Made by a program: the position numbers and the translations under genes
Notes under the pieces: model-generated
The model's database searches: none
Seen by the model: only the letters and a program-made list of their open reading frames with translations
Told to the model about the DNA's origin: nothing
Part shown: positions 1 to 21,735 of the stretch, piece after piece
Layout: every line of letters starts with the position of its first letter
How positions within the stretch are numbered: the stretch's first letter is position 1
Assembly (NCBI RefSeq): GCF_000194605.1
Contig: NC_015321.1
Span: 1,116,001 to 1,180,000 of the forward strand
Reading direction: 5' to 3'
Length of the DNA stretch: 64,000 bases
DNA from: Fluviicola taffensis DSM 16823
GTDB lineage: Bacteria; Bacteroidota; Bacteroidia; Flavobacteriales_D; Crocinitomicaceae

Positions 1-1
1 T

Positions 2-484
2 ACTGCAGGAAACACAAGTGTATTCCTTGACGGAGTAGGCATAGGAACAAACCCATCAGCTGTTTTTAACATCGTCAATCATCCAAATGCAACTCTCAGA
101 ATCGGTCAATCACCTGGTCAAAGTGATTATGGTCGTTTTAATATTGATGAGTTTTTAATTTACAATAGATATTTAACTACAACAGAAATTACTACCGTAA
201 TGAACAGCAATTCACTTGCTACAAATGTTGGAATAGAAGAGAATGATTCAAATAATTTAATTTCAACTTATCCAAATCCTACATCTGGAATTTTGAATAT
301 CGAAGTAAAAGATGCAACGAATTTAACTTATAGTCTTTACAGTTCTGACAATCGCGAGGTATTATCTGGCGAATTGAATGCTAGTCAAAACACCATTAAT
401 ATTCAAGATTTGGCTGCTGGAACATATTTCTTAAGAACAACTATCAATGGAACAGTGGTAACTAAGAAAATTTCAAAACAATAA
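2..484 (+). CDS. LamG-like T9SS-exported protein, C-terminal part (5' end outside window)
   Basis: The open frame enters from the left edge, so only the last 160 residues are visible. The first part (motifs VFLDGVGIG, LRIGQS, FNIDEFLIYNRYLT) has the pattern of the end of a concanavalin/LamG lectin-like domain. The last 75 residues form a type IX secretion sorting domain beginning YPNPTSG and ending in a short basic tail (KKISKQ). It should be exported across the outer membrane and attached to the surface or released. The C-terminal domain is closely similar to that of the next gene (638-1705), so the two are tandem paralogues. A strong terminator follows. Confidence 0.85.
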   Translation, partial: TAGNTSVFLDGVGIGTNPSAVFNIVNHPNATLRIGQSPGQSDYGRFNIDEFLIYNRYLTTTEITTVMNSNSLATNVGIEENDSNNLISTYPNPTSGILNIEVKDATNLTYSLYSSDNREVLSGELNASQNTINIQDLAAGTYFLRTTINGTVVTKKISKQ

Positions 485-498
485 TTTTGATTTCTATG

Positions 499-540
499 AA
501 AACGGCTGACTCCATTGATTTGGGTCAGCCGTTTTTTTTT
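499..540 (+). terminator. Rho-independent terminator after the LamG gene
   Basis: The stem AACGGCTGAC / GTCAGCCGTT is followed by a run of nine or more T. It ends the transcript of the partial gene at the left edge. Confidence 0.9.
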
Positions 541-552
541 GATAAAAACACC

Positions 553-619
553 ATTCACAAGTTTTGGTTACTGCTTCACAAGGTAAAATTGGAGTTGGTA
601 AAAAGAGCCTATTTCTTTG
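553..619 (+). promoter_or_regulatory. Two-half-site operator and -7 box of the LamG gene (regulon site 1)
   Basis: Half-sites ATTCACAAG (553-561) and CTTCACAAG (574-582) lie 21 bp apart. A Bacteroidota-type -7 box TTTCTTTG sits at about 612-619, 34 bp after the second ACAA core and 19 bp before the start codon. Five other promoters in the first 12.3 kb have the same layout. The geometry suits a LytTR-type regulator binding next to the -33 region; this is inferred. Confidence 0.7.
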
Positions 620-637
620 CTTCATAAAATAAAATCT

Positions 638-1705
638 ATGAAAAGAAAACTTTACTTATTGAGTGCAATTGTTTTGACAAGTGTTAGTTCAACATTTGCA
701 CAGTATCCAACAAATGGACTTATTGGTTATTATCCATTCAATGCAAATATCGAGGATGCATCGTCAAACAACATTGACATGACGAGCCCAACAGCACCTG
801 GATATTTCTCAGACAGATTCAATGCTCCAAACAGTTGTTATGAAAGCTCTTCAGGCGCAAGAATTCCTAATGTTCAAAATTCAGCAAATATTAGTTTTTC
901 TCTTTGGGTACATCCTTTAAATATTAATGATTATTACCCAGCAATTTTTTCACGCGCTCTTTATCTTTTCAATGGATCAAGTAATATTGGAAAAGTGGGG
1001 AATTATTTGTTGTATTTAGAACCTTCAACGCTTACTAATCAATTTGGCGTATGGATGGAATGTCATCAAGGAATAGGAGGTCCAAATTCAACAACTTATG
1101 AATATTTTGGATATCCTCAAGCAATTGATGTTGCAGAATGGTCACATATTGCTGTTACAATTCAAGGTACAGATGCAAAAATGTACATCAATGGTACACT
1201 GACTGCTTCAATGACTTTAGCTACCTCAATGGTTGCAGTAACTGCAAATGATCCAAACACAGGAGTTGATCAAATCAATGACTTGGTTTTAGGAAAATCA
1301 AAACAAATTGAGGTGAATTCTGGATCATACAGTGATTATCTTAATTTCTCTGGTTTCATTGACGATATCTTCATCTATGATCGCGCATTGTCTGCTGCAG
1401 AAGTAACAACATTGTATACTTTACCTCAAAACCCAACACCAGTAGGAACAGCTTCAATAAATGAGCAGACAGCTAACTTGGTTAACGTATATCCAAATCC
1501 AACAGCTGACTTTATGCAAGTTGAGTTAACAGCTGAAAACGAAAGTGCGTACAGCATTTACAGCGCAGACAATCGTGAAGTTATGAATGGAACTTTGTCA
1601 ACTGGTAATAACAGCATTGATGTTCAAACTTTGGCAGCTCGCACTTACTTTTTGAAAACAACAATCAACGGTTCTGTTGTAACAAAGAAAATCACAAAAC
1701 AATAA
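638..1705 (+). CDS. Secreted LamG-domain protein with T9SS sorting domain
   Basis: This is a surface or secreted protein of about 355 residues. The ATG at 638 is chosen over an upstream in-frame TTG at 617 because it begins a typical signal peptide (MKRKLYLLSAIVLTS...FAQ) and because the TTG lies inside the promoter box. Residues about 25-265 contain lectin/LamG-like features (GYYPFN, FSLWVHP, WSHIAVTIQG, MYINGTL, IDDIFIYDRALS). The C-terminal 75 residues are a T9SS sorting domain (YPNPTADF...KKITKQ). It is a tandem paralogue of the partial gene upstream. Ligand and role are unknown; LamG domains generally bind carbohydrate or protein. It carries regulon operator site 1. Confidence 0.85.
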   Translation: MKRKLYLLSAIVLTSVSSTFAQYPTNGLIGYYPFNANIEDASSNNIDMTSPTAPGYFSDRFNAPNSCYESSSGARIPNVQNSANISFSLWVHPLNINDYYPAIFSRALYLFNGSSNIGKVGNYLLYLEPSTLTNQFGVWMECHQGIGGPNSTTYEYFGYPQAIDVAEWSHIAVTIQGTDAKMYINGTLTASMTLATSMVAVTANDPNTGVDQINDLVLGKSKQIEVNSGSYSDYLNFSGFIDDIFIYDRALSAAEVTTLYTLPQNPTPVGTASINEQTANLVNVYPNPTADFMQVELTAENESAYSIYSADNREVMNGTLSTGNNSIDVQTLAARTYFLKTTINGSVVTKKITKQ

Positions 1706-1758
1706 GACGTTTTAACCACAAAAACACGTCGCTAAACTTTCAATAAATAGTGGTAGGT

Positions 1759-1795
1759 AAAAGCCCATTTGTCAGCAGATAAATGGGCTTTTTAA
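1759..1795 (+). terminator. Terminator after the LamG gene
   Basis: The stem AAAGCCCATTT / AAATGGGCTTT is followed by T residues. The rest of the roughly 365-bp gap up to 2072 shows no gene, only a second hairpin at 1974-2010. Confidence 0.85.
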
Positions 1796-1973
1796 TTGTT
1801 TGCCAAAACTAAAATAGTAAGCTTCAAATCAACTCCTTTTTTACAACCGAAGCAAGAATACTCTTTCAACATTTAATTGCTTCAACGTTCATTTTAAACC
1901 ATTAAAAATCGACTATCATCGTATGACTAACTAGGTTTAAAATTGTAACGACTTCATTGATTTTTAAGAGCAC

Positions 1974-2010
1974 AAAAAACGGCTATCAAAATCAATTGAT
2001 AGCCGTTTTA
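1974..2010 (-). terminator. Terminator for the two-gene operon on the minus strand
   Basis: The stem AAAACGGCTATCAA / TTGATAGCCGTTTT has A/T tracts on both sides, so it could work in both directions. It lies about 60 bp past the stop of the minus-strand gene at 2073. Confidence 0.8.
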
Positions 2011-2072
2011 TCTTTATTTACTGTTAGTTCTATGTTTCTCTGAATCTCAGTATACTATAAAAACAGATGAAT

Positions 2073-2393
2073 TTACAATTTCACTCGTGTGTTGTTATCA
2101 GAAGCAGATACTGTCATTATAACTTTACCTCCTTCTTTGTACTTAACAACAGCACCAGAATTGAACTTGTAAGATGTGATCATTTTACCACCAATTCGAC
2201 CTGTTCCTGGGTAACCAGAATTTTTATCAAATACCAAATAAATATCCTCACTTGTTGTGTTTTGGAATTCAATTTTGATATCGTCTCCTGTTGATTTTAC
2301 CGTTTTTGAACTCGCTTCATTAGAAGACATTGTAAAACTCATTGCTGTTCCTGTTGCAATGATCAATGCCATTGCGTAAACTACTTTTTTCAT
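2073..2393 (-). CDS. Small secreted protein of unknown function
   Basis: A 106-residue protein with a signal peptide (MKKVVYAMALIIATGTAMSF) and a mature part of about 80 residues. No family is recognised. The mature part (KIEFQNTTSEDIYL...) loosely resembles that of the upstream neighbour 2420-2761 (VTFQIKNDTKDTHDL...), so the two may be distant paralogues. The 26-bp gap to that gene and the terminator after this one suggest a two-gene operon driven by regulon site 2. Location is periplasmic or extracellular. Confidence 0.8.
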   Translation of the reverse strand: MKKVVYAMALIIATGTAMSFTMSSNEASSKTVKSTGDDIKIEFQNTTSEDIYLVFDKNSGYPGTGRIGGKMITSYKFNSGAVVKYKEGGKVIMTVSASDNNTRVKL

Positions 2394-2419
2394 GTGTATT
2401 AAATTTAAGGATTAAAAAA

Positions 2420-2761
2420 CTATTTAAATTCAGGTGCTTTGCTATCTCTTACGGCAATCAATTCGCTCATCAACAATGTTTTGCCTTGCATACTTGCATC
2501 AAGCGTAAACAACAATTTACTATACATGTAAACTTTTCCTTCAGTTGCGGTAATTTCATATGGATCTGAAGAACTTCCAATGTATTTGTATTCACCTCCT
2601 GCAAAATTCAAATCATGTGTATCCTTTGTATCGTTTTTGATTTGAAAGGTGACTTTCTGAGTGCTTTTATTGGTTGTTGTAGCTGTTTTCTGTTCTTGAG
2701 AAAAAGCAACACTTGATAAAGATGTAAAAGCTATTAAAATAAGATAAACTGTTTTTTTCAT
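2420..2761 (-). CDS. Small secreted protein of unknown function
   Basis: A 113-residue protein. The ATG at 2761 is preferred over longer in-frame starts because it begins a clean signal peptide (MKKTVYLILIAFTSLSSVAFSQ) and lies 23 bp after the predicted -7 box. The mature part is polar and rich in K, T and S, with no recognised domain. It is the first gene of an operon with 2073-2393, and its promoter carries the shared operator (site 2). Co-regulation with T9SS cargo suggests an envelope or secreted role, but function is unknown. Confidence 0.8.
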   Translation of the reverse strand: MKKTVYLILIAFTSLSSVAFSQEQKTATTTNKSTQKVTFQIKNDTKDTHDLNFAGGEYKYIGSSSDPYEITATEGKVYMYSKLLFTLDASMQGKTLLMSELIAVRDSKAPEFK

Positions 2762-2783
2762 AATTCTTGTATTGTTTATAAAA

Positions 2784-2850
2784 CAAGAATACTCGGAAAA
2801 AAGCATGCAATCAAAAATTACTTGTGAACTGTCAAATAAAAATTGTCAAC
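2784..2850 (-). promoter_or_regulatory. Two-half-site operator and -7 box (regulon site 2, minus strand)
   Basis: Read on the minus strand, half-sites GTTGACAAT (2850-2842) and GTTCACAAG (2829-2821) are 21 bp apart. The -7 box TATTCTTG (2791-2784) begins 34 bp after the second ACAA core. This matches the other five sites but in the opposite orientation, which argues for a functional site and not a simple duplicated stretch. Confidence 0.7.
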
Positions 2851-2986
2851 TGCATTTCTACTTGATTACACACCTCTTTACACCACATTCTTCATGAAAA
2901 AATCAACTCACAAGGTATTTCCTACTTTTCCATGGTTTAATTGTTATTCGTTGGAAATAAGTTATCTATTTGCAAAAAAAATAATC

Positions 2987-4174
2987 ATGAACACTTCTAA
3001 AACTTTTGCATTTTTTGTGTTAATTACGATTCCCTTTTTAGTTAAAAGTCAGGAATATGATCCTTTTACACCTTACTCGTTTATCAAAAACGACACGAAT
3101 AAAACCATTCTATTTTCTTGTGTGAGTTTTAAAGAAGGTAATGCTTCTGCAATTCGATATAATTTCCGTGATCCAGTGGTTATGAAACAACAGAATGTTG
3201 CAACCAGAGGTAGTTATGATCGTCAGGATGAATATCATTTATTAGGTTGGCGTTCTGAAACTGTATTTAGTTATACGAATGTAGAGTGTGATGCCAATGG
3301 CGTAGCACCAAATATAAACGTAACAGGATATAAAGACATCGACGTAAAACATTTTGATGTCCGCGACTTTTATTCCGATGATGCACATATTATTTGGCGA
3401 TGGGATCGAGATGCAACGCTTTACTACAAGTTGACATTGTACTCTTGGGTTCCTGGAGGTGATCATGTATATGAAGATGGTAAACCATACAATTCAAACG
3501 ATATGTGTCGCATTTGCAAAGCTTATAAAGAAAGAAATTCAGAAACGGGAGAAGTGGAAATGGTGACCAATGAAAGCCGGTACGAAAATGCTGATGGAAA
3601 AGTGATCTTTTATTTTGAAACCAAAGAGATGGCTGCAGAATTGATCAGTAAAATCAAGAAGTATGGTAAAGCAACTGATCCATATAAGGGAGATGTAAAC
3701 CCATTCGTTTTTACTTTAGATCATAAAACAGGAAAAACAATTACACTAAAAAAAGAAGACATTACTTTTCACAATGATACCTATACCGATTTTACTTTTG
3801 TCAATGATCAAAAACTTTGGATTGTAACCATTGACAGCACCCTTGATAGCCAAATGGAAATTAAAATCCCAAAAACAACCATTCGAAGTATTCCAATTGA
3901 GTTTATTGACAAAGGTGACTTTGAAGAGCATTATGTTACTGATAGGGGAAATATGGTGGAAATTCGCTTCATATCAACAAATGATGGGGTAGTTGACACC
4001 TATTCATTTGGTGAATTCAGACGTGGTATTTGCAGAGCCAATATTGGAAAAATAGACAAAGCAAATGGTTATTCCGGGGCAAACAGTGTGTTGTTCTACT
4101 TGAAAGATTACTCGGCAATGGAAGAACTCTTGAAAAAACTTGGGAAAACATCTATTCCAATGGAGAAATTATAA
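2987..4174 (+). CDS. Secreted protein of unknown function
   Basis: A protein of about 395 residues starting at the ATG of MNTSKTFAFFVLITIPFLVKSQ, a signal peptide. Upstream in-frame starts would add about 48 residues ahead of that signal and are rejected. The mature protein is polar and rich in aromatic and charged residues (RWDRDATLYYKL, DVKHFDVRDFYSD), with no family recognised. The last third contains two similar segments ending VIFYFETKEMAAELISKIKKYG and VLFYLKDYSAMEELLKKLG, which suggests an internally duplicated domain. Not obviously in an operon; the next gene is convergent. Confidence 0.75.
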   Translation: MNTSKTFAFFVLITIPFLVKSQEYDPFTPYSFIKNDTNKTILFSCVSFKEGNASAIRYNFRDPVVMKQQNVATRGSYDRQDEYHLLGWRSETVFSYTNVECDANGVAPNINVTGYKDIDVKHFDVRDFYSDDAHIIWRWDRDATLYYKLTLYSWVPGGDHVYEDGKPYNSNDMCRICKAYKERNSETGEVEMVTNESRYENADGKVIFYFETKEMAAELISKIKKYGKATDPYKGDVNPFVFTLDHKTGKTITLKKEDITFHNDTYTDFTFVNDQKLWIVTIDSTLDSQMEIKIPKTTIRSIPIEFIDKGDFEEHYVTDRGNMVEIRFISTNDGVVDTYSFGEFRRGICRANIGKIDKANGYSGANSVLFYLKDYSAMEELLKKLGKTSIPMEKL

Positions 4175-4189
4175 TCTAAAAACAACGAT

Positions 4190-4915
4190 TTATCGCAAGA
4201 ACAACTCCAAATCTTTTTTCTTATCCCTTGAAATAGGCAGAATTGTTTTATCCTTCATTGTTGCTTCTAATTGATTGATCTGTTGAATATGCAAGGTATT
4301 CATGATGTAAGACCGATGTGCTTTGAAGAAATGATCTTGTGAAAGCAAGGAATCATATTCTTTCAAGGGTTTGGAAACAACAATCCGCTTTCGGTTCAAC
4401 AAATGAAATTCGGTATATACATTGTCTGCTTTCAGGTATAGCACATCTTCCAACAGCACCGGATATTGACCTTCGTGATTGCGTAAGATGATTTTTTCGA
4501 TTTTTTCCACTTTGGACATTTGCTCCAACAATTCCAATTGCTCCGTAGTAACAATCCCTTTTTTCAGTACTCTCGAAACAGCTTCTACAAAGCGATCTTC
4601 CTTGAGTGGTTTTAACAAATAATCAATGGCGCATAACGAAAAGGCCTCCAAAGCAAAACCACTGTAGGCAGTTGTGAAAATGATTTCAAAATTCAATTCT
4701 TCTTTGCTCAGGTATTTTCCGATATCAATGCCCAATTCGCCGTTGAGCTGCACATCCAAAAACACAAAATCAACCGCATGCTGTTTCAAAAATGCCGCCG
4801 CATCACTTATTTTATCAAAATCCGCCAGACAAGTAAATTCCGGAAAATGCTTGTTCACATAACTTTGAACCACATTTACCGCCTGAGGTTCATCTTCAAT
4901 GATGATATATTTCAT
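4190..4915 (-). CDS. LytTR-family response regulator
   Basis: A 241-residue transcription regulator. Residues 1-120 are a receiver domain with acidic pocket E7/D8, phospho-acceptor D54 (FLDVQL), T81/T82 and K102 (LLKPL). Residues about 140-241 are a LytTR DNA-binding domain (LYLKADNVYTEF, FKAHRSYIMN, ILPISRDKKKDL). It is encoded just downstream of its likely kinase (4926-7262; 10-bp gap), forming a LytS/LytR-type two-component operon. It is one of two candidates, with the stand-alone LytTR protein at 7398, to bind the repeated operators found at six promoters around it. Confidence 0.93.
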   Translation of the reverse strand: MKYIIIEDEPQAVNVVQSYVNKHFPEFTCLADFDKISDAAAFLKQHAVDFVFLDVQLNGELGIDIGKYLSKEELNFEIIFTTAYSGFALEAFSLCAIDYLLKPLKEDRFVEAVSRVLKKGIVTTEQLELLEQMSKVEKIEKIILRNHEGQYPVLLEDVLYLKADNVYTEFHLLNRKRIVVSKPLKEYDSLLSQDHFFKAHRSYIMNTLHIQQINQLEATMKDKTILPISRDKKKDLELFLR

Positions 4916-4925
4916 AAGCTCTTCG

Positions 4926-7262
4926 TTAATAAGTATCCTGAGGAATGACTAAAATAATCAAAGTCCCCAAAGAATTTCCATGCTCGTCTTCTTTATCGAG
5001 AATTTCCTGCGTAATTGCCAGACCGTAACTTTCATTCAACAATTCAATTCGGGTCATATTTGCTTCCGTACTGAACGAACTTCCTTTACGAGGTTTCATG
5101 GAACCGATTTTACCCGCTGCTTCTCTGCCTATCCCGTCGTCTTCAATTTCGATCCGCAGGGTATTCTCTTCCGAAACAAACCGAAGCGTGATCAATCCAC
5201 CGTTTTCTTTGTTTGCCAATCCGTGTTTGACCGAATTTTCCACGATGGGCTGAACAATCATCGGGGGCAAAAACAAATCATATAACCGCAAATCCGCCGA
5301 GTATTCAATCTCATAACGGATTTTCGGCATGCGCATACATTCCAGTTTCAGGTATGATTCGAGTAATTCCAGTTCGTCGTACAATGCAATTTCGTTGGTG
5401 CGCGAGCTTTCCAAAACAGAGCGGCTCAATTCACTGAACAAACCGATTGATTCACTCGCCTTTTGCTGTTCACCTGTTAGAACATATCCTTGAATCGAAT
5501 TCAATGCATTGTAGAAAAAATGCGGGTTCATCTGACTTTTTATGGCTTTTATCTCACTCTCGGAAGCACGTTGCTTTTGTTCAAAGATCAGCTCTGCATC
5601 CGCCATTTTTTGTGCTAGAAGTTCAGTCTTTTTGCGTTGTTTGAATCGGATAAAAAGGAAAAGAGCTACTAATCCGATAAAAAGGAATCCCACCACAAAG
5701 ACCACGAGATATAAGTTCTTTCTTTCAGATTGTAAACTAACCAACTCATTTTTTTGTTTCAACAAATCGATTTGTGCCTCTCTCACCTGCTGCTGAATTT
5801 TAAAATCGGCCTTTACGACCTTGGTTTTATTTTCCAGGTTAAACACCTTGTTGGACATCCGGTGCTCCAACTGCCCCATTTCAAAAGCCAGTTTGAAATT
5901 TTTCTGGGCCTGAAATATTTTTTTCAAAGTCGTTGCGATGCTCATCACTGTTTCCGGCTGGTCTTCGATTGAACCTAGTAAAGCATAACTTTTGGTTCCA
6001 TGGAATACGGCTTGCTGCAGGTTGTTTTCGTTGAGGTAAATGGCAGCCAATTGATTGTGTGTTTCACAAATCATCTGCTCATCATCCAGTTCTTCAGACA
6101 ATACAAGGGACTCCAGGTAGTTTTTTTTGGATGCTTCCCGATACTTTTGAGCACTTTCCGGATTCGTTGATTTTTTTGCCAGGGTTGCCTGATGCAGTTG
6201 AAACATCGCATATTTGTAAAGTGCATAGGCGTGTACCTCTTTCAGCTGACTTCTTTTGGTGATATCCAGTGCTTTCAGCAAATACGCTTCGATACGGTCC
6301 AGCAATTTTGCTTTTTCGGAAGCTGTTTTGGCCCGTTCCACTTGTTTCAGGTAAACATTCGAAAGGTTGATATACGAATGCGAAATTTCTTCTTTGACAT
6401 TCATTTTCCGAGCCAAATACAAGGACTTCTTCAAGTACTCTTCCGCTTTATCCAGCTCATCGAACTTGTTGTACAAAGTCCCCAAATGCCGGTATGCTGC
6501 CAGTTCATTGTCCCGGGAATGACTTTTTTTTGAATACTTCAGCGATAACAGCCCGCATTCAATGGATTTGGAAATATTTCCATGCTCACATTCTTCTACG
6601 GCTAACAAATAATAGTCGTGGCTCAATACACCGTATCGTTTGTGTTTTTTCGCCACCGCAATGCTTTTCAACAGATAATAACGGGCTTCTTCATTCCGTT
6701 CGAACAGACCTAATGAATAACTCAGATTGGCCGTAAGCGTGGAAATCTGTTCCGGGTCATTGATTTTCTCAGCAAATTCGAGCGCTTTTTTGGCGTAATT
6801 GATTAAGCCATCATAATCCCCTATTATTTCATAATAATTAGCCAAACTACTATACAAGTACACACAAGCCTGGTTCAAGTGGTTCTTTTCGGCAATTTTT
6901 ATGGTTTTTTTCAGTAGTGGATAAGCCTTTTTAGCTTCACCCTGGCTCATGAGCAGGTAGGCCTGATTATTTTTTGCGATGCAATACGTTTCTTGGTAAA
7001 AAAAACGGCCTTTCTTTGAAAGTTGTTTGCTTTTCAGCTTCCGGGACACGATGGAGATCAATTCATCATTGAATTTCGGCCAAACCCGGTCATCCGGTTC
7101 CATCTCAATGCGCTGTTTCAACAATTCGCAACGGATAGAATCTTTTTGAAGGTGATTTTTCAGTGCCCATTCCACCTTCTGAATCGTATTTCCAGCCAAA
7201 CAGTTTGTTGCACATACATGCATGAAGAATAAGCAGATGAATAGATGAAGGGTTCTCATCAT
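4926..7262 (-). CDS. TPR-containing LytS-type sensor histidine kinase
   Basis: A protein of about 778 residues. The start at the MM pair (7262/7259) gives a signal peptide (MMRTLHLFICLFFMHVCA); a longer in-frame start is less likely. Residues about 30-490 are tetratricopeptide repeats in the periplasm, followed by a coiled coil, one membrane helix (YLVVFVVGFLFIGLVALFLF), then a His_kinase domain with the box MNPHFFYNALNSIQ and a HATPase domain with VENSVKHGL and DDGIGREA. It should phosphorylate the LytTR regulator encoded directly downstream. TPR-bearing sensors of this kind are common in Bacteroidota; the signal is unknown. The 5' end faces the divergent LytTR gene at 7398. Confidence 0.92.
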   Translation of the reverse strand: MMRTLHLFICLFFMHVCATNCLAGNTIQKVEWALKNHLQKDSIRCELLKQRIEMEPDDRVWPKFNDELISIVSRKLKSKQLSKKGRFFYQETYCIAKNNQAYLLMSQGEAKKAYPLLKKTIKIAEKNHLNQACVYLYSSLANYYEIIGDYDGLINYAKKALEFAEKINDPEQISTLTANLSYSLGLFERNEEARYYLLKSIAVAKKHKRYGVLSHDYYLLAVEECEHGNISKSIECGLLSLKYSKKSHSRDNELAAYRHLGTLYNKFDELDKAEEYLKKSLYLARKMNVKEEISHSYINLSNVYLKQVERAKTASEKAKLLDRIEAYLLKALDITKRSQLKEVHAYALYKYAMFQLHQATLAKKSTNPESAQKYREASKKNYLESLVLSEELDDEQMICETHNQLAAIYLNENNLQQAVFHGTKSYALLGSIEDQPETVMSIATTLKKIFQAQKNFKLAFEMGQLEHRMSNKVFNLENKTKVVKADFKIQQQVREAQIDLLKQKNELVSLQSERKNLYLVVFVVGFLFIGLVALFLFIRFKQRKKTELLAQKMADAELIFEQKQRASESEIKAIKSQMNPHFFYNALNSIQGYVLTGEQQKASESIGLFSELSRSVLESSRTNEIALYDELELLESYLKLECMRMPKIRYEIEYSADLRLYDLFLPPMIVQPIVENSVKHGLANKENGGLITLRFVSEENTLRIEIEDDGIGREAAGKIGSMKPRKGSSFSTEANMTRIELLNESYGLAITQEILDKEDEHGNSLGTLIILVIPQDTY

Positions 7263-7306
7263 AGGGTTAACCGGTATTTGAGTTCGACGAAGGCAAATGT
7301 AATTCA

Positions 7307-7374
7307 ATCTACAAGGCTTTTAGTGCCTTTCACAAGTTTTTTTAAAAAAGTAAGGTCGAAAACTACTTCTTTTG
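7307..7374 (+). promoter_or_regulatory. Two-half-site operator and -7 box of the stand-alone LytTR gene (regulon site 3)
   Basis: Half-sites ATCTACAAG (7307-7315) and TTTCACAAG (7328-7336) are 21 bp apart. A -7 box TTCTTTTG (7367-7374) starts 35 bp after the second ACAA core and ends 24 bp before the ATG at 7398. The site suggests that this regulator gene is a member of the regulon and possibly autoregulated. Confidence 0.65.
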
Positions 7375-7397
7375 GTTTTTCTAAACCCCAAAGTGAA

Positions 7398-7718
7398 ATG
7401 CTGTTTTTAAAAGTTGGCAGAAAATTGGTACAGGTAGATCTGGAGAATATCCGGTACATTCAATCGAGCAATATCTATTGCCTGGTGTATTTAAAAAACG
7501 GCGAGCGGTTGATCTGCACTTCCACATTGCAGGTATTGGAAGAGAAACTGAAGCTCTTCCGCTTCATTCGCATTCACCGATGCTACATTGTAAATGTAGC
7601 CGAAATCAGTGTGATCGATAAATCAAGCATGAGTATTTACCTGAACGAGCTTCCCGACCCGCTTCCAATTTCCAGAAGATACAAACCCTTTATTGCGAAG
7701 CTTGAACATGCGGTATGA
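7398..7718 (+). CDS. Stand-alone LytTR DNA-binding protein
   Basis: About 106 residues consisting almost only of a LytTR domain: FLKVGRKLVQVDLENIRYIQ, then YCLVYLKNGERLI, FIRIHRCYIVNVAEIS and LPISRRYKPF. No receiver, membrane helix or other sensor part is visible. An open frame continues upstream to 7245, but that would overlap the divergent kinase start and run through the predicted promoter, so the ATG at 7398 is chosen. It lies divergently to the LytTR two-component operon. The operator upstream of it matches those of the secreted-protein genes, so it is a plausible small regulator or modulator of that set. Confidence 0.8.
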   Translation: MLFLKVGRKLVQVDLENIRYIQSSNIYCLVYLKNGERLICTSTLQVLEEKLKLFRFIRIHRCYIVNVAEISVIDKSSMSIYLNELPDPLPISRRYKPFIAKLEHAV

Positions 7719-7854
7719 TCGCCGGGCATCTTTCCGGTATCTTTGATCTGGTCAACAATTTCGCTTAATAATTCAGCACTGTCAATGGACTTCGGTGAAG
7801 ACCTTGTGCTTTTCTTTCTTCAATTTCTTGGATATAATCTTGCTAGGTTTTCAT
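7719..7854 (-). pseudogene. Fragment of the start of an aconitase B (acnB)-like gene, copy 1
   Basis: Read on the minus strand from the ATG at 7854, the sequence gives MKT-stop-QDYIQEIEERKAQGLH, then after a one-base frameshift IDSAELLSEIVDQIKDTGKMPGD. This is the N-terminus typical of Bacteroidota AcnB (EIEERKxQGLHPKPIDxAELLSEI). It has a stop at codon 4, a frameshift and no continuation: it ends against the stop codon of the LytTR gene at 7718. A second fragment is at 14103-14153. Identification is from remembered family sequence, not a search. Confidence 0.65.
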
Positions 7855-8010
7855 AAAAGAAGACTTGCTTTTTGAAAGTTGTTGTTTTTCGATTTGTTCG
7901 ACGCGCGAATAATTAGTCAAAAGCAATGGAATGTGAAACAGAAAGTTTGCTAAGAAAGTATAGCCACAACAATTCAGATTGGTTCTAAATTAAAGAATCG
8001 CAAGAAACTA
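7855..8010. repeat. Diverged repeat, copy 1 (DNA upstream of the acnB fragment)
   Basis: About 150 bp upstream of the acnB fragment match 14154-14310. Shared blocks include CAAAAGCAATGGAAT, AAAGTTTGCTAAGAAAGTAT and TTCAGATTGGTTCTAAATT. Both copies lie between an acnB start fragment and a plus-strand secreted-protein gene, so one segment (acnB start plus intergenic DNA) has been copied. The rest of the gap up to 8160 shows nothing further. Confidence 0.75.
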
Positions 8011-8159
8011 GTTTCTTTTCAAATACTTCATCTAATTTTTAAAAAGCCATTTTTCTTATTCGTAAATCAAAAGCCATTTTTCAACCGCAAATTAAGGTCA
8101 TTTCATAAATCCAATCTGAATAATTTAGCACCTTCAATCATCTTTACCATCAAAAAAAC

Positions 8160-8666
8160 ATGAAATACTTTACACTATTTTTTTTCAGCGCTTTTAGTCT
8201 CTTTGTTCTTGGACAAAACACTATTTCATTCCGAGATGGAAAAAGCTATACGATCAAAGGCACAAAATTAGGAACGAACTTCATTTATGACTTTAATGAC
8301 CCGTCCATCAAAGAAAAATTAGTCGAATACTACTGGTCCGAAGAAAACGGTGAAGTAACAATTACAGAATATTCGACTTGGTTGAAAGCTGAAATTGCTG
8401 GGAGAATGGATGAGTTGAAGGTATACACCTTTAAAGTAGAAAATCTGGAAAGTAATCCAGAAATGATTGAAGAGACTGACGAATACGGACGCTTCTTAAT
8501 CCATTCACTGAATTTCACCATGAAAGATGAGTTCCCGCTTTCCTGTTCCGTTTACTCTATTTGGAAATCGGAACCAAACGCAACTAAAACACTAAAATAT
8601 TATTCCGTCTACTGCATAGAGAACTCATTTTTCTCCGACCTAATAGCGAAAACACGAGTGGAATAG
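8160..8666 (+). CDS. Secreted protein of unknown function
   Basis: A 168-residue protein with a signal peptide (MKYFTLFFFSAFSLFVLG) and a polar mature domain (IKEKLVEYYWSEENGEV..., FPLSCSVYSIWKSE). Two cysteines near the C-terminus could form a disulphide. No family is recognised. Its upstream DNA is shared with that of the unrelated-looking secreted protein at 14386. No regulon operator is seen upstream. Confidence 0.7.
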   Translation: MKYFTLFFFSAFSLFVLGQNTISFRDGKSYTIKGTKLGTNFIYDFNDPSIKEKLVEYYWSEENGEVTITEYSTWLKAEIAGRMDELKVYTFKVENLESNPEMIEETDEYGRFLIHSLNFTMKDEFPLSCSVYSIWKSEPNATKTLKYYSVYCIENSFFSDLIAKTRVE

Positions 8667-8854
8667 CAACACCTTCAGAAAGCCAGATTCTATTTTCATG
8701 GAAGGATAAAGCAGGAAAATCATTCGCACAATCGGTGACATTTGTTCAGAAGTAAACTTCTACTGGAAATTATAACACTTGTTTTGTGTCGTCACCACAA
8801 AAATCTTTTGCAGGAAGAAATGTTCTTGATTGGTCAACCAATGGATAACACAAG

Positions 8855-9066
8855 TTGGTAGCTAAAAACTTGACGTATTTTGAAAACTCCTTGCAAGGCG
8901 CTGAAAATTTTGTGTGGGTACATTACGCTCCTTTAGTGTCAACATGGATGAGGTTTCGGCTTACATCAAATCAGATGGAGCCAATCTAGAATTGCGTTCT
9001 GGGAAAGTCATTCCCGTTTCAAGAGAACGCAAACAAGCCGTTTTAAAGTATTTGAATTTGGAGTAA
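8855..9066 (+). pseudogene. Remnant of a LytTR-domain regulator gene
   Basis: One frame gives LVAKNLTYFENSLQGAENFVWVH. After a frameshift near 8938 another frame gives VNMDEVSAYIKSDGANLEL, then GKVIPVSRERKQAVLKYL and a stop at 9064. This is the C-terminal half of a LytTR domain (compare FVRVHRSYLVNMDEV and IPVSRERK in the family). No intact start or receiver domain is visible in 8667-8854, which holds no other gene. The remnant lies immediately upstream of regulon site 4. Confidence 0.75.
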
Positions 9067-9073
9067 ACGGTTG

Positions 9074-9140
9074 TTTACAAAGTCAGCTTTGAAGTCCACA
9101 AAGTCATAATTCCCTTGTAATATTGGGTCACTTATTTTTG
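9074..9140 (+). promoter_or_regulatory. Two-half-site operator and -7 box (regulon site 4)
   Basis: Half-sites TTTACAAAG (9074-9082) and TCCACAAAG (9095-9103) are 21 bp apart. A perfect -7 box TATTTTTG (9133-9140) starts 35 bp after the second ACAA core and ends 16 bp before the ATG at 9156. Confidence 0.75.
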
Positions 9141-9155
9141 ATTAAAATAAAATCT

Positions 9156-10373
9156 ATGAAAAAGATAAGTTTAGCACTCATTGGCTTGTTCCAAACATTC
9201 TTGCTATTGGCAACCGAACCCTACAATTACAACCAGAATTACAATTTCAACAAATACATCAAAGAAGGAAAGTGGATTAGCTATGCAGATGATTATGATA
9301 AATATGAAGTGAATCTGACAAAAGAAAATACGGGAAAAACCGATTTTGAAGGAAACGAAATTTTCAAATGGCACTTTAAGTGTGATAAATATGAAGCTTA
9401 TTTAGTACCAGATAATGAATTCTATCCCTTATTTTACCGCTTATTAGTGAAAAATGATGAAAAGAAAGGATATGACTCTCAAGACACTGATCGGTCTGGA
9501 ATGCGGGACATTGGTTTTATAGTTTTGAATGAAAATCACATTGCTTGTGTGAGAATAGTTGATGATGCAAGATCTTTAGAGAATGATCCCTCGATTCACC
9601 AACGAATTGGAGTAACTGTTTCAAATTATGATAATTTGTATCATCGAATGGAACCTAAAACTACAGCTTCACTTTATTCATTCTATCGAGGTAAAGCTAC
9701 AGGCTCACCTTATAGAGATTGGGCAGCTTTTATGCTAGCTGAAGACATGAAAGAATTTTATAGTACTGATGCCCATCAAGGAAAGCCAATGACCCAATGG
9801 AAAGGAATTCCAAAATATTATGACTATTTATTGAAGTACCAAGAGCAACAATTGGAGTTAGCAAAAACAAAAAAAATAAGTGGTTTGCTGAATGAATTTG
9901 CAGATGGGGAGTACAAATTGTATACAGATGGAGCTTCTTTCGGAAAGATTGATTACGGAAAAATCAACATTAAATTCGAAAAAACTAATGGGAAAGTAAC
10001 CGGTTTCACAGTCCAGAATTGCTTCACCGACGGCTTGTTTTATGACAAGGAAAAATTTTTTGTGAAGCATACAGTAGCTGCAAATGGAGAAGTGAAATAC
10101 GATGGGGGTAAATTTTACATCCTCCCTTTTGATGGGCGCTTGCTGATATACTATTACTTGGATGGAGTGTCGGGTATCTCGGCAGTTATTTCTCCAAATC
10201 AACACGATCAATTTGCTGAATTTTTAAGCAAAGGTGATGCTTGGAGTGTAAAAGAAACCGATCATGCATACTTCTGTGCCACCGAAATGGAAATGGAGTA
10301 CAATAAAAAACTCGATAAATGGATGTTTGCCAATTATATTCAACAATACCAAAAAGTAATTTTAGGGAAATAA
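9156..10373 (+). CDS. Secreted protein of unknown function
   Basis: A 405-residue protein starting at the ATG that begins a signal peptide (MKKISLALIGLFQTFLLLATEP). The leader AAAATCTATGAAA is the same as that of the LamG gene at 638. Residues about 20-240 are a polar domain with repeated YN pairs near the start (YNYNQNYNFNKY). Residues 245-405 form a second region (EYKLYTDGASFGKIDYG..., YYYLDGVSGISAVIS). No family is recognised. It carries regulon site 4 and is followed by a strong terminator. Confidence 0.75.
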   Translation: MKKISLALIGLFQTFLLLATEPYNYNQNYNFNKYIKEGKWISYADDYDKYEVNLTKENTGKTDFEGNEIFKWHFKCDKYEAYLVPDNEFYPLFYRLLVKNDEKKGYDSQDTDRSGMRDIGFIVLNENHIACVRIVDDARSLENDPSIHQRIGVTVSNYDNLYHRMEPKTTASLYSFYRGKATGSPYRDWAAFMLAEDMKEFYSTDAHQGKPMTQWKGIPKYYDYLLKYQEQQLELAKTKKISGLLNEFADGEYKLYTDGASFGKIDYGKINIKFEKTNGKVTGFTVQNCFTDGLFYDKEKFFVKHTVAANGEVKYDGGKFYILPFDGRLLIYYYLDGVSGISAVISPNQHDQFAEFLSKGDAWSVKETDHAYFCATEMEMEYNKKLDKWMFANYIQQYQKVILGK

Positions 10374-10390
10374 CTAGTTAAAGAAAAGAA

Positions 10391-10418
10391 AAGGGCGCGA
10401 CAAATCGCGCCCTTTTTT
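10391..10418 (+). terminator. Terminator after the 9156 gene
   Basis: The GC-rich stem AAGGGCGCGA / TCGCGCCCTT has a four-base loop and is followed by T residues. Confidence 0.95.
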
Positions 10419-10435
10419 ATGCCCTCTTTTTCCCA

Positions 10436-10502
10436 TTTACAAAGTCAGATATGTTGTTTACAAAGGCAATTGATATTCACCAATCTGCTTGGCTTAGCTT
10501 TG
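10436..10502 (+). promoter_or_regulatory. Two-half-site operator and -7 box (regulon site 5)
   Basis: Half-sites TTTACAAAG (10436-10444) and TTTACAAAG (10457-10465) are identical and 21 bp apart. A perfect -7 box TAGCTTTG (10495-10502) starts 35 bp after the second ACAA core and ends 16 bp before the ATG at 10518. Confidence 0.8.
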
Positions 10503-10517
10503 AAAGAAAATTTACCT

Positions 10518-12110
10518 ATGATGAATAAACAATTACTTTTTACAGCACTTTTAAGCTGTTTGTTTCTGTCAACAAAAAGTTTGGCATCAACCTATGTTAT
10601 CACACACAGTATAAATCAAGGAACGATTGCATATGCTGCAGGAGATGTGATCGAATTTTACACAAGTATTCCTGGTGAATACAATGTAAACACAAGTGCT
10701 GGTTCGGTAATCGGATTCACTAGTTTTTCAAATAATAATGAATTAGCTGCTACGTATGTATTAACCGGTACAGAAACCATGGCCAGCATTACATTGCGCA
10801 CCCCCACTTTTTTACCCCCTCCATCTCAACCGTATACCTTTTCTCCTACGATAGTGAATTTGGCAGGCTGTAATATTACTATTCCTGATGTTAATTTTAA
10901 AAATTATTTGGTCAACAATGCACAAATTAATCTGAATAGTGATGCGGAAATTCAATGCAACGAAGCAAGTTCGTTTACCGGTGCAATTGATTGTTCTAGC
11001 ATGAACATCACTGATTTAACAGGGGTAGAAGCATTTACTAATTTAACTTGGTTGAACTGTTATTCCAATCAATTGACACAATTAGATCTAAGCAATAATC
11101 TAGCACTTTACTACTTAATTTGTTCCTCTAATCAGCTGACTTCACTGAACCTTGGATCCAATACGCTTTATACTACAATTGCTTGTGGCAGCAATCAGTT
11201 AACATCTTTGGATATCAGTAATTGTGATGGTTTAAATGCGTTGGTTTGTGAGGGAAATCAGATTTCTGCACTTGATTTATCTGGCAAAACTGCATTGACT
11301 AATTTACAATGCGGAACAAACAATTTGACCAGCTTAGATGTATCTGCTTGTTTAGGCTTGGTGACACTTACCTGTTACGAAAACAACCTTACTGCACTTG
11401 ATGTTAGTCAAAACACCTCATTGAATGATCTGCGTTGTGCGGCCAATCCAATCACTAGTTTAGATGTGTCTATGTTGACCAATCTCAGCTATTTGTACTG
11501 TGGCGATAATGGACTAACTAATCTGGATGTTTCCAACAATACAGATTTACTGCGCATGGACGTTTCTTCCAATCCAATGACAACGATTGATTTGAGTGCA
11601 AATACAAATTTGATTTCATTTGGCGCTGTTTATTCTTCCATTTTGGATTTAGATTTAACTCAAAACACCGCTTTGCAAGAAGTTTCGATTCATCATGGAG
11701 TATATGAAAGTGTGAATATTCAAAACGGCAATAACCAAGCTATAACTTATGTCGCTTTTATGAATAACCCGAATCTTTCTTGTATTCAAGTGGATGATGT
11801 CGCATACAGTGTTTTGAACTGGTCAAGTCAATCGGATGTATCGACCAGTTTCAGTCTCAATTGTGCGAGTACGAATGAAATTAATGAAATTTCTACTGAA
11901 ACAATAAAAGTGTACCCAAATCCAACTAAAGGAACAAGCACCATTATGGTTGCAAAACCAACACAGATTCATGTCACAACTGTAGATGGCACAGAACTAA
12001 TAACCACTATAGTTGAGAACGAGAAAGCATTAGATCTTTCAGCTTTTTCAGCAGGAATTTATTTCATTCACACAACAGAAGGGCAAACGATGAAACTGAT
12101 AAAAGAATAG
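10518..12110 (+). CDS. Secreted leucine-rich-repeat protein with T9SS sorting domain
   Basis: About 530 residues. The start is at the MM pair beginning a signal peptide (MMNKQLLFTALLSCLFL). Residues about 25-110 are a short N-terminal domain, then NITIPDVNFKNYLVNN, the usual entry to this repeat class. About twelve 21-residue repeats of the form LxxLxCxxNxLTxLDLSxN follow (for example NCYSNQLTQLDLSNN). The protein ends in a T9SS sorting domain (VYPNPTKG...LIKE). Such repeats make a curved beta-solenoid used for binding at the cell surface. It carries regulon site 5 and has its own terminator. Confidence 0.9.
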   Translation: MMNKQLLFTALLSCLFLSTKSLASTYVITHSINQGTIAYAAGDVIEFYTSIPGEYNVNTSAGSVIGFTSFSNNNELAATYVLTGTETMASITLRTPTFLPPPSQPYTFSPTIVNLAGCNITIPDVNFKNYLVNNAQINLNSDAEIQCNEASSFTGAIDCSSMNITDLTGVEAFTNLTWLNCYSNQLTQLDLSNNLALYYLICSSNQLTSLNLGSNTLYTTIACGSNQLTSLDISNCDGLNALVCEGNQISALDLSGKTALTNLQCGTNNLTSLDVSACLGLVTLTCYENNLTALDVSQNTSLNDLRCAANPITSLDVSMLTNLSYLYCGDNGLTNLDVSNNTDLLRMDVSSNPMTTIDLSANTNLISFGAVYSSILDLDLTQNTALQEVSIHHGVYESVNIQNGNNQAITYVAFMNNPNLSCIQVDDVAYSVLNWSSQSDVSTSFSLNCASTNEINEISTETIKVYPNPTKGTSTIMVAKPTQIHVTTVDGTELITTIVENEKALDLSAFSAGIYFIHTTEGQTMKLIKE

Positions 12111-12158
12111 TGATTTTTCATAGGTGATGGAATTGCAGTTGTGTGATTCTATTTTTTG

Positions 12159-12187
12159 AAGAGGACTCCAAGAAGTCCTCTTTTTTG
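12159..12187 (+). terminator. Terminator after the LRR gene
   Basis: The stem AAGAGGACT / AGTCCTCTT is followed by six T residues and lies immediately before regulon site 6. Confidence 0.9.
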
Positions 12188-12190
12188 TTG

Positions 12191-12256
12191 TTTACAAAGT
12201 CAGATTTGTTGTTTGTAAAGACATTTCCATTGTTCATGAAAGATGCCTTTAATTTG
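12191..12256 (+). promoter_or_regulatory. Two-half-site operator and -7 box (regulon site 6)
   Basis: Half-sites TTTACAAAG (12191-12199) and TTTGTAAAG (12212-12220) are 21 bp apart. The -7 box TTAATTTG (12249-12256) starts 34 bp after the second core and ends 22 bp before the ATG at 12278. The flanks (TTGTTTACAAAGTCAGAT...) are nearly identical to site 5. Confidence 0.75.
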
Positions 12257-12277
12257 AATGAAAATTAAAAAACACTT

Positions 12278-13576
12278 ATGAAAAAACACGTATTCAAGAT
12301 AATGGGCATGCTTGTTTGCCTTTTTGTTGCAAATGAAGTGGTTGCACAAACCAACTGTCTCGTTGACAGTACTTATAGATACAATGCTTCCAATCAGGTA
12401 ATTACTAAAAATCTCTACACTTATGATAACAATGGTTGGCAAACAGAACAGTTAATCAAAGATTCTGTAAATGGTGTATGGAAAAACACCATGCGCTATA
12501 ATTACAGTTACACGACAGCTGGGTTGATATCTGAAAATGTCGTGCAATCGTGGGTGAACAATGCCTGGAGAAATGCTTCAAAACAAGCATTCACTTACAA
12601 CGCAAATGAAGATGTACTCACCGAACGAAATTATTATTGGGACACACTCACTTCGACTTGGATTGGAAACGGTTTTCAGCAAAATTACACTTACAATGCA
12701 AACAATAAACGCATTCTACAGTTGCAAGCTTATTTGTCGAATGGAGTACCAACTGATAGCTCTCGCACAACTTCTACATACGATGCGAACAACAATGAAA
12801 TCATCAATTTAAGAGAAGGTTGGACCGCTTCAAATCCTGTTTGGCGAAATATTCAGAAGTTCATCAATAAGTATACAAGCAATAACGAAATAGATTCTAC
12901 TTTTAATTTGATTTGGAACAGCACCAACTTAGTTTTTGATACGAGTTATTTGTCCACGTATACTTACGATGCTCAAGGAAATCAACTTTTGTGTCTCGTG
13001 CAACAGCGCAATGGAGCGGTTTGGATGAACAATGGTAAATATACTTATACCTACAATGCAAACGATAACTTAACTGCATCCAGTTATTTTTATTGGGATA
13101 ATTTTTCCAATTCATGGCTTGAGACCAGTCAGAGCCAAAACACTTACAATGGATCACAGGTTACCTATTCATTATCATTGAGTTTTAATTCTTTGGCTGG
13201 AACCTTAATCAATTCGTATCAAACTAATTATTACTACGATGCGAACGATAACTTGGATTATTTCTTATCAGAAAGTTGGAATGCGAATACCTCGTCGTGG
13301 CAATTTGATTACAAATTGCGCTATTTCTACGATTGTACACCTTTAGCAATTGATGAGCTTTCAGCAATGGAGATGCGTTGTTATCCAAATCCAGTAAACG
13401 ATATGCTAACGGTTGAATTAGTAACTGCTAGTCCAATTGAAATTGTTTCCATTACCGGGGCGAAAATGGGTAACTATGCAGCTCAACAGACACATCAAGT
13501 GGATGTTTCTAGTTTTCCAGCTGGAATTTACTTTGTGAAAACACCAAATTCAGTTCAGAAAATCATCAAAAAATAA
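12278..13576 (+). CDS. Secreted tandem-repeat protein with T9SS sorting domain
   Basis: A 432-residue protein with a signal peptide (MKKHVFKIMGMLVCLFVANEVVAQ). Residues about 30-355 are made of some nine imperfect repeats of about 35-40 residues with YTYNAN(D/N)- and W(N/D)x-(S/T)-type cores, recalling YD/Rhs-like beta repeats. The C-terminus is a T9SS sorting domain (CYPNPVND...KIIKK). It is probably displayed or released at the surface; binding partner unknown. It carries regulon site 6. The next ORF begins directly after the stop, but a terminator hairpin (13598-13620) separates them. Confidence 0.85.
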   Translation: MKKHVFKIMGMLVCLFVANEVVAQTNCLVDSTYRYNASNQVITKNLYTYDNNGWQTEQLIKDSVNGVWKNTMRYNYSYTTAGLISENVVQSWVNNAWRNASKQAFTYNANEDVLTERNYYWDTLTSTWIGNGFQQNYTYNANNKRILQLQAYLSNGVPTDSSRTTSTYDANNNEIINLREGWTASNPVWRNIQKFINKYTSNNEIDSTFNLIWNSTNLVFDTSYLSTYTYDAQGNQLLCLVQQRNGAVWMNNGKYTYTYNANDNLTASSYFYWDNFSNSWLETSQSQNTYNGSQVTYSLSLSFNSLAGTLINSYQTNYYYDANDNLDYFLSESWNANTSSWQFDYKLRYFYDCTPLAIDELSAMEMRCYPNPVNDMLTVELVTASPIEIVSITGAKMGNYAAQQTHQVDVSSFPAGIYFVKTPNSVQKIIKK

Positions 13577-13867
13577 GTGACCTTATACACTTACAGAACC
13601 ACCTCAAGGGGTGGTTTTTGTGTTTCTAGTTCTACCAAAAACGCTTATATTAGCTTCATAAAACCAGAACGAAAAGACATCAAGCCAGGCATGTTGGTGG
13701 CGTTTATTCAAAAGCACCATAAACACTCAGGCGAAATCACCGAAGGCATTGTCAAAAGTATTCTCACCAGTGCGCCAGTACACCCGCACGGCATCAAAAT
13801 CATGACTGACGAGAATAAAGTGGGCAGAGTGGTGGAGATATTGGAGGATTTGGAGGATTTGGATTGA
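13577..13867 (+). CDS. YwbE-family protein, start uncertain
   Basis: The conserved part runs from about 13662: RKDIKPGMLV, then TEGIVKSILTSAPVHPHGIKI and NKVGRVVEI, matching the short YwbE/DUF2196 family, whose function is unknown. Family members are about 65-70 residues and begin just before the DI(R/K)PG motif. Here no ATG is found at that place; the nearest in-frame ATG (13690) is after it and the frame runs back to a GTG at 13577 through a terminator hairpin. Either a non-standard start is used or the 5' end was lost when the upstream gene arrived. The tail LEDLEDLD comes from a short GGAGGATTT repeat. Confidence 0.6.
   Translation: MTLYTYRTTSRGGFCVSSSTKNAYISFIKPERKDIKPGMLVAFIQKHHKHSGEITEGIVKSILTSAPVHPHGIKIMTDENKVGRVVEILEDLEDLD
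13598..13620 (+). terminator. Terminator after the tandem-repeat gene
   Basis: The stem AACCACC / GGTGGTT is followed by TTTTT. It lies inside the N-terminal extension of the following open frame, which argues against that extension being translated. Confidence 0.75.
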
Positions 13868-19178: not shown

Positions 19179-19976
19179 TTAAACCATCCGATTTTTTATC
19201 TGCTTATAATACGTTTTAGATAACGGAATTTCCTTTTCACCCTGAACAAAAGCAATTTTTGCGCTTTGTGAATTCCCAATTATTTCTTTCACGGTAATCA
19301 GATTGACCAGATAAGAGCGGTGGCATTTTTCCAAAGAAGGAATTTGCTGAGAGACATTGGAAAGTGTTTGACGAAATGTTTTGGAGACTACTTTGTTACT
19401 CTCATCCACAAAACAGATCTCCACGTAATTTTCGAAAGCTTTAACGAATAATAAATTCTTCTTTTCGAGGGTTAGAATTTCATGTTTATTCTCTCCTATT
19501 AAACGAATGGAATTACTAGCAAGGGGTAAGATTAGTTCTCCAAATTGCTGTCTCAAATAAAGCATTACAGGAGCTATAACAGGAATCATCAGTAATACGA
19601 TTGTGCCTAAATAGCGCAAATGAGATCCCAAAGAATAGCTTTGCTGATTAATCAACAATCCATTGTACAGATAAATCATACTCCCAGAAAACAAAAAAAA
19701 CAAAATAGTTGAAATGATTTCATGGGAAACCCGCCAAACTTTTCGAACTCGGAAATACCACAAATTCTCAAGACTACTGTAAATAACAAAAGCACTAAAA
19801 ATCAGAATTCCAAAAATGGAAAGAACCAATAATTTATGATCCGAATGGAATTGATCGGTATCAAAAGGTTCCAAAAAAATAATGATGAAGGACAAAAAAA
19901 CACCCAACATCAAACCAACCAATACTTTTCTCTTTACAGATGCTATAAAACGGATTTGCCTGTTTAAAAAAGTCAC
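19179..19976 (-). CDS. Membrane-bound LytTR transcription regulator
   Basis: A 265-residue protein. Residues about 15-160 contain four membrane helices (VLVGLMLGVFLSFIIIF, LLVLSIFGILIFSAFVIYSS, IISTILFFLFSGSMIYL, IVLLMIPVIAPVMLYL). Residues about 175-265 are a LytTR domain (LTLEKKNLLFVKAFENYVEI, EKCHRSYLVNL, IPLSKTYYKQIK). There is no receiver, so it probably senses a membrane or extracellular signal directly. Bacteroidota encode many such proteins; target unknown. Confidence 0.9.
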   Translation of the reverse strand: MTFLNRQIRFIASVKRKVLVGLMLGVFLSFIIIFLEPFDTDQFHSDHKLLVLSIFGILIFSAFVIYSSLENLWYFRVRKVWRVSHEIISTILFFLFSGSMIYLYNGLLINQQSYSLGSHLRYLGTIVLLMIPVIAPVMLYLRQQFGELILPLASNSIRLIGENKHEILTLEKKNLLFVKAFENYVEICFVDESNKVVSKTFRQTLSNVSQQIPSLEKCHRSYLVNLITVKEIIGNSQSAKIAFVQGEKEIPLSKTYYKQIKNRMV

Positions 19977-21704: not shown

Positions 21705-21735
21705 TATTTCTATTTTTAAGTGGTTACGCAACATG

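Follow-up and report, generated by a model that had tools for sequence, protein, structure and literature searches.

The first 12,400 nucleotides of the window, a 64,000-nucleotide stretch of the genome of the freshwater bacterium Fluviicola taffensis DSM 16823 (C1:1116001-1180000; the genome, G000, is a single contig, C1, of 4,633,577 bases), contain six promoters that are each preceded by a direct repeat of the LytTR type, and these repeats fall into two classes that occur together with two different response regulators. We consider it probable that the promoters belong to local regulons of two paralogous LytTR two-component regulators: RR-A, encoded in the window at 4190..4915 (minus strand), and a second regulator, RR-B, encoded at C1:2015318-2016067. 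The base that follows the ACAA of the half-site is G or T at sites 554, 2850 and 7308 (class A, half-site TTCACAAG) and A at sites 9074, 10436 and 12191 (class B, half-site TTTACAAAG); in the three class B sites, the core of the first half-site is followed by A and then GTCAG.

A sequence-only reading had assigned all six promoters to one regulon, and this is the part that finds no support, as two site classes go with two different response regulators. The promoters themselves are all found where it had placed them, each with a pair of TTYACAA-like half-sites at a core-to-core distance of exactly 21 bp. Its distances of 34, 34, 35, 35, 35 and 34 bp from the second core to the -7 box are reproduced as 37, 37, 38, 38, 38 and 37 bp with another zero point, namely once counting begins at the first base of the second core. 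The box had been described as TANNTTTG-like and is rather TNNYTTTG-like: only three of the six boxes begin with TA and that of site 2850 has CTTG. Further suggestions of the same reading, LytTR-type direct repeats just upstream of promoters, secreted or T9SS-exported (type IX secretion system) targets and the protein encoded at 4190-4915 as one cognate factor, are supported.

The class A repeats are TTCACAAGT-N12-TTCACAAGG at 554..581 (plus strand; box TTTCTTTG at 612-619), TTGACAATT-N12-TTCACAAGT at 2822..2849 (site 2850, minus strand; box TATTCTTG at 2784-2791) and TCTACAAGG-N12-TTCACAAGT at 7308..7335 (plus strand; box TTCTTTTG at 7367-7374). They precede a LamG/T9SS protein (638-1705), a small protein that appears secreted by eye (2420-2761) followed by 2073-2393, and a solo LytTR domain protein (7398..7718, plus strand). 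The class B repeats, all on the plus strand, are TTTACAAAG-N12-TCCACAAAG at 9074..9101 (box TATTTTTG at 9133-9140), TTTACAAAG-N12-TTTACAAAG at 10436..10463 (box TAGCTTTG at 10495-10502) and TTTACAAAG-N12-TTTGTAAAG at 12191..12218 (box TTAATTTG at 12249-12256). Their targets are 9156-10373, which has no Pfam match and appears secreted by eye, a T9SS protein with LRR-like repeats (10518-12110) and a further T9SS protein (12278-13576).

The six promoters are an incomplete set: in the 30 kb scanned upstream of the window, the last 16 kb hold six more of the same layout (C1:1099955+, 1100765+, 1107849-, 1107949+, 1111462+ and 1115395+), making 12 promoters in C1:1099955-1128218 (28 kb). These 12 sites are not all independent, as the tandem copies 1115395 and 1116554 (window 554) differ hardly at all. 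The box matches TNNNTTTG exactly in nine promoters and is one letter off in 2850, 1100765 and 1107849. Of the 12 first genes, 11 were compared with Pfam (one in part): five encode a T9SS tail together with matches to LamG, LamG plus Ig-like, beta-propeller, DUF3836 or, below threshold, LRR; another is the solo LytTR gene, and four have no match. The gene behind 1115395, of which 173 residues were read, has a LamG-like match under the cut-off; for the gene behind 1100765, the orthologue in the congener Fluviicola sp. SJ411 (G005) encodes a T9SS tail and matches LamG slightly below the cut-off.

This arrangement is not expected by chance. Window positions 1-12400 contain five composites (a half-site pair with at most two mismatches plus TNNNTTTG at 37 or 38 bp) versus a mean of 0.003 and a maximum of 1 in 300 dinucleotide shuffles, and the 44-kb block contains nine versus a mean of 0.08 and a maximum of 1 in 100 shuffles. 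A comparison of spacings in chosen loci from five genomes gives 21 composites at 21 bp versus 19 summed over the other 21 spacings between 12 and 33 bp. Published LytTR sites are two direct or inverse repeats of 9-11 nt with spacers of 11-13 nt (PMC4847170), and in LytTR Regulatory System (LRS) operons of Streptococcus mutans the spacer is mostly 12 bp and the repeats lie 4-11 bp upstream of the -35 element (PMC6193735). All 12 promoters have 9-nt half-sites with 12 nt between them. By position the repeats would fit just upstream of a -35-like element, but the sequence there is only T-rich, with no clear -33 element; the second repeat ends about where an upstream promoter element would start. 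The layout is thus of a known kind, here in two flavours side by side.

The two classes hold up beyond this genome. When sites are grouped by their nearest regulator, all 18 class A rows have G behind the second ACAA and all 10 class B rows have A; this count uses 28 of 34 tabulated sites and leaves out L134:7054-, L130:3503 (degenerate), L048:12405 (no gene downstream), L133:14351 (out of register), L129:5451 (duplicate of 12191) and L047:10117 (another LytTR regulator). Four further sites, from the congener G008, have A after ACAA in 4/4. Sequence models, whose E-values are rough, were trained on the 12 block sites of G000, both classes together (R1), on eight class B sites of G000 and G005, with G008 excluded (R2), and on pooled class A sites including those of G000, G005, G399 and G259 (R3); whole-genome searches scored at most 150 candidates per genome, and at most 11, with stricter filters, for R3 in 399 genomes. 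In G000, R3 lists only the nine class A sites, and at E≤0.1 it has no match in the class B loci L055, L184, L131 and L129. Conversely, R2 has no match at the class A sites of L171, L172, L173 and L134, and in loci from G259, G399 and a metagenome-assembled genome (MAG) with RR-A at 55% it gives a single match (0.0034) without a proper pair.

RR-A has a receiver (PF00072) and a LytTR domain (PF04397), the composition of LytS/LytTR systems, and adjoins HK-A, a TPR sensor kinase (about 4926..7262, minus strand) with a His_kinase domain (PF06580) and a HATPase_c match just under the cut-off; PF06580 is likewise found in HK-B (L055:6067-8973). LytTR response regulators matching RR-A at E≤1e-30 are common (42/59 genomes, own included), and HK-A at E≤1e-40 is found in 8/59 (own included), two of which, G000 and G005, are the only ones where its identity exceeds 60%. 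No congener other than G005 combines such an HK-A with RR-A (92%; next best match 38%) and a solo LytTR relative (50%). Of 399 genomes from the order, four have RR-A at E≤1e-50: G000, G005, the MAG G399 (69% identity; 73% complete) and G259, which belongs to another genus (66%).

Class A sites follow this distribution. In G000, R1 recovers all 12 training sites at E≤1.5e-6 and nothing else below 0.008. In 14 genus genomes, its strong matches are confined to G000 (12) and G005 (seven at E≤8.9e-5, including one with the sequence of a training site); in the other 12 the best E-value is 0.001 or more. In 28 family genomes, the top three matches are all from G259 (5.0e-7, 1.5e-6 and 6.9e-6), and a fourth G259 match has 1.4e-4. 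The G259 sites precede three T9SS-tail genes and a solo LytTR gene (L171:5472, with the layout of site 7308), each with 21 bp and 37 bp, one box being one letter off. G399 has a site with an exact box ahead of a T9SS-tail gene one gene from RR-A (R1 E=0.0012). In the 55% MAG, where the model searched 194,501 bases, a perfect pair with a box lies ahead of a small gene (1.3e-7) and a second pair, without a box, by the kinase (5.4e-5). R3 at E≤3e-4 matches 5/399 genomes, the four training genomes and G257; a Fisher test of RR-A against R3 hits is biased, as R3 contains sites of the same genomes and the two draws of 399 genomes are assumed identical, and R1 in the genus, family and MAG searches and R2 in G008 are the cleaner tests.

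Conservation in relatives, which the sequence-only reading had named as a check, was thus found in G005, G259 and the MAGs. Orthologous sites in related loci are L047:4090 for 2850 (known before R1 was built), L131:938- for 9074 and L129:7207- for 10436; target orthology rests on BLASTN for part of G005 and on comparison by eye elsewhere. At five orthologous promoters of G000 and G005, the half-sites agree in 71/80 positions, the 13 bases between them in 48/65, the 20 upstream bases in 51/100 and the stretch from the second half-site to the box, scored by the better of two justifications, in 65/146; box letters agree in 25/25, partly by construction, as fit was the criterion for picking boxes. 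A sixth pair, without any difference over 79 bases, was left out. This pattern is difficult to reconcile with the idea that the shared sites are functionless leftovers of gene duplication, which we regard as extremely improbable. Duplication has evidently occurred, as 554 and C1:1115395 are near-identical and 8840-10373 is a diverged duplicate of C1:2.013-2.016 Mb, but half-sites are conserved while their flanks diverge between species, and unlike genes share them (a LytTR protein, small proteins, LamG, propeller and LRR-like T9SS proteins). As a separate observation, G005 has three half-sites in a row at L048:12337-12440, each 21 bp apart by eye, with no open reading frame (ORF) of at least 100 residues starting downstream.

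Class B sites have a corresponding partner. Intact RR-B adjoins a propeller-type kinase, and three promoters beside it have class B pairs (C1:2012865-, 2014251- and 2015309-) with boxes at 37-38 bp. RR-B at E≤1e-60 and R2 matches at E≤1e-3 are each found in the same 3/14 genus genomes, G000, G005 and G008 (next best genome for R2, 0.0058); among the 13 congeners, both thus occur only in G005 and G008. The R2 matches of G008 (6.1e-9, 5.5e-4, 0.003 and 0.017) lie within 7 kb around RR-B, and the genes behind two of the three forward sites resemble, by eye, those of G000. In three species a class B pair is also seen in reversed orientation ahead of the RR-B kinase (L055:9068+, L131:4715+ and L184:6074-).

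In the window, RR-B is present as a remnant just ahead of site 9074 (8837..9065, plus strand): 75 C-terminal codons, residues 175-249, with an internal stop and a frame change. Over its last 46 residues, identity to intact RR-B is 96% for the G005 protein and 85% for the G000 protein, and window 8840-10373 as a whole is the diverged duplicate of the C1:2.013-2.016 Mb locus.

That RR-A alone serves all six window promoters, with classes A and B as tolerated variants of one site, is unlikely in the light of these data. Both classes do share spacing and box distance, R1, which was built from both, scores both, and the class B promoters are less than 8 kb from RR-A. However, class B sites also occur beside RR-B (C1:2012.8-2019.1 kb) and in G008, whose closest match to RR-A has about 33% identity, R2 finds no class B site in loci from G259, G399 and G400, and R3 finds none of the class B sites.

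Several observations weigh against two regulators with their own site classes. The HK-A/RR-A operon itself has no recognisable site at up to two mismatches; the other units of the block in the window of which this is true are the unit ending at 4174 and 8160-8666. L134:7054- adjoins RR-A yet has A after the second ACAA (G then A) and no box; adding it makes the class A count 18/19. Its locus, L134, is the same LytTR locus as L135 in two MAGs (SZAS-39 and SZAS-21), counted once. The G005 promoters of L130:3503 and of the solo LytTR gene are degenerate, and the pairs beside RR-B have at least one half-site mismatch each, with an exact box in one of the three. R1 also gives matches in two genomes without RR-A: that in G085 (1.3e-4) has no pair, and that in G017 (1.8e-4) has an exact pair but no TTTG box. 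A match in G399:C49 (1.3e-4) has a poor pair and no box, and in the same search as the 55% MAG a chance match of 4.7e-4 fell inside a transporter-like gene of L139; single matches near 1e-4 therefore prove little. In G257, which lacks RR-A at E≤1e-50, the R3 match (L198, G257:C34; 4.0e-5) is a one-mismatch class A pair that lacks a box. Apart from this, the locus shared by SZAS-39 and SZAS-21 is possibly a binning artefact.

The solo LytTR protein could itself be the main class A binder in an autoregulatory loop, which we consider quite unlikely. The protein consists of a LytTR domain alone and is encoded behind a class A site, as is also seen in G259, and autoactivating LytTR regulators are known (PMC6193735). 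Its only close relatives are however in G005 (50%) and G259 (38%), yet G399 (73% complete) and G400 have RR-A and class A sites; matches in G399, G400 and G401 have 27-39% identity and are nearly all in frames of more than 200 residues, and G399 has one short frame (122 residues, 29%) that resembles it. As class A sites occur where no close relative was found, the solo LytTR protein is more likely a target than the main regulator. The regulator-plus-membrane-inhibitor operon of an LRS was not seen here: no plus-strand ORF of at least 80 residues lies between 7718 and 8160.

The sites are local and not genome-wide. Genome-wide enrichment of the spaced pair, another check named by the sequence-only reading, is not clear: one-mismatch pairs at 21 bp number 69, compared to 54 for the reversed pattern. 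Exact pairs number 76 at spacers 5-35, nine of them at 21 bp, and four of these nine are inside the block. Of the others, 3128245 and 4062546 lack a box at 36-39 bp even when one letter may differ, 4315165 has no exact box, 902508 has none at 37/38 bp by eye, and 2019067 adjoins RR-B and has no box. A genome-wide regulon was rejected on these grounds.

For binding, activation and signal, which we infer, we propose activator-dependent Bacteroidota promoters under the two paralogous regulators. Each regulator would bind as a dimer to the pair of direct 9-bp half-sites, which at a distance of 21 bp, exactly two helical turns, face the same side of the DNA, and recruit or position RNA polymerase at the TNNYTTTG-like -7 box 37-38 bp downstream; as no strong -33 element is visible, it would stand in for that element. 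RR-A with HK-A would drive the TTCACAAG promoters, three in the window and six upstream. RR-B, beside its propeller-type kinase, would drive the TTTACAAAG promoters: those three that adjoin its own genes and, acting in trans, those at 9074, 10436 and 12191 in the window, where the local RR-B copy is a remnant. The regulons would be local because many T9SS-exported targets adjoin kinase and regulator genes.

The LytTR domain is common to these regulators and to AgrA of Staphylococcus aureus and ComE. The AgrA/ComE half-site differs from the half-sites described here and, unlike in AgrA/ComE systems, the sensors carry TPR or propeller domains. The LytTR profile matches solved AgrA (3bs1) and ComE, and together with the published LytTR geometry this makes activation by a phosphorylated dimer the likely mode of action. 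Dimeric AgrA binds direct repeats that lie upstream of P2 and P3, and it represses bsaA from a site downstream of that promoter (PMC4227749). That the regulators described here repress is a very improbable reading: the sites are close to the promoter and the direction of control is not readable from sequence, but they lie upstream of the -33 position and not over the box, at promoters without a clear -33 element, and the repeats described for HdrR and for AgrA at P2 and P3 sit upstream of the promoter and activate.

A close parallel is YpdA/YpdB of Escherichia coli, likewise a LytS/LytTR two-component system, with a very small regulon; the yhjX promoter has a direct repeat of 21 bp start to start, as here (PMC4847170). 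The YpdB half-site is GGCATTTCAT, compared to TTCACAAG or TTTACAAAG, and unlike in YpdA/YpdB there are many neighbouring target genes and Bacteroidota -7 promoters. HdrRM and BrsRM of Streptococcus mutans also have repeats separated mostly by 12 bp just upstream of the promoter, and control there is positive (PMC6193735); these systems pair a LytTR regulator with a membrane protein, whereas here a two-component response regulator is the likely main factor. Among open-access papers, judged by titles and the beginnings of abstracts and with most subscription journals outside this scope, none on a LytTR binding site in Bacteroidota was found.

The window encodes two further LytTR proteins, both on the minus strand: one without a receiver domain and with hydrophobic N-terminal segments by eye (19179-19976) and a response regulator adjoining a His_kinase protein (27373-29156). 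Also on the minus strand are a PD-(D/E)XK nuclease family protein that matches the candidate defence model PDC-S26 (20451-21734) and a reverse transcriptase of the defence-linked UG14/DRT type (36210-37760; PADLOC RT_UG14, E=4e-218).

Window 10228-13847 is 91% identical at the nucleotide level to L129 of Fluviicola sp. SJ411 over 3.6 kb, compared to 77-81% in the RR-A/HK-A stretches, and the 12191 promoter has the same 79 bases as L129:5451; a recent exchange is possible. A more detailed version of the two-regulator reading, to which we give a little less than an even chance, is that the classes are kept apart mainly by the base after ACAA (G versus A), that the window class B promoters, orphaned by decay of the local RR-B copy, answer to intact RR-B almost 0.9 Mb away, and that kinase, regulator, sites and T9SS cargo genes make up modules that Fluviicola species duplicate, lose and exchange with one another.

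If the two-regulator reading is true, it would show that a regulon of this type may be confined to its own neighbourhood and so escape a genome-wide count. It would also provide a concrete site, a promoter position and two paralogue pairs for testing how LytTR proteins choose their sequence, and a way to test LytTR action at TTTG-type promoters, and it would link LytTR systems to T9SS cargo.

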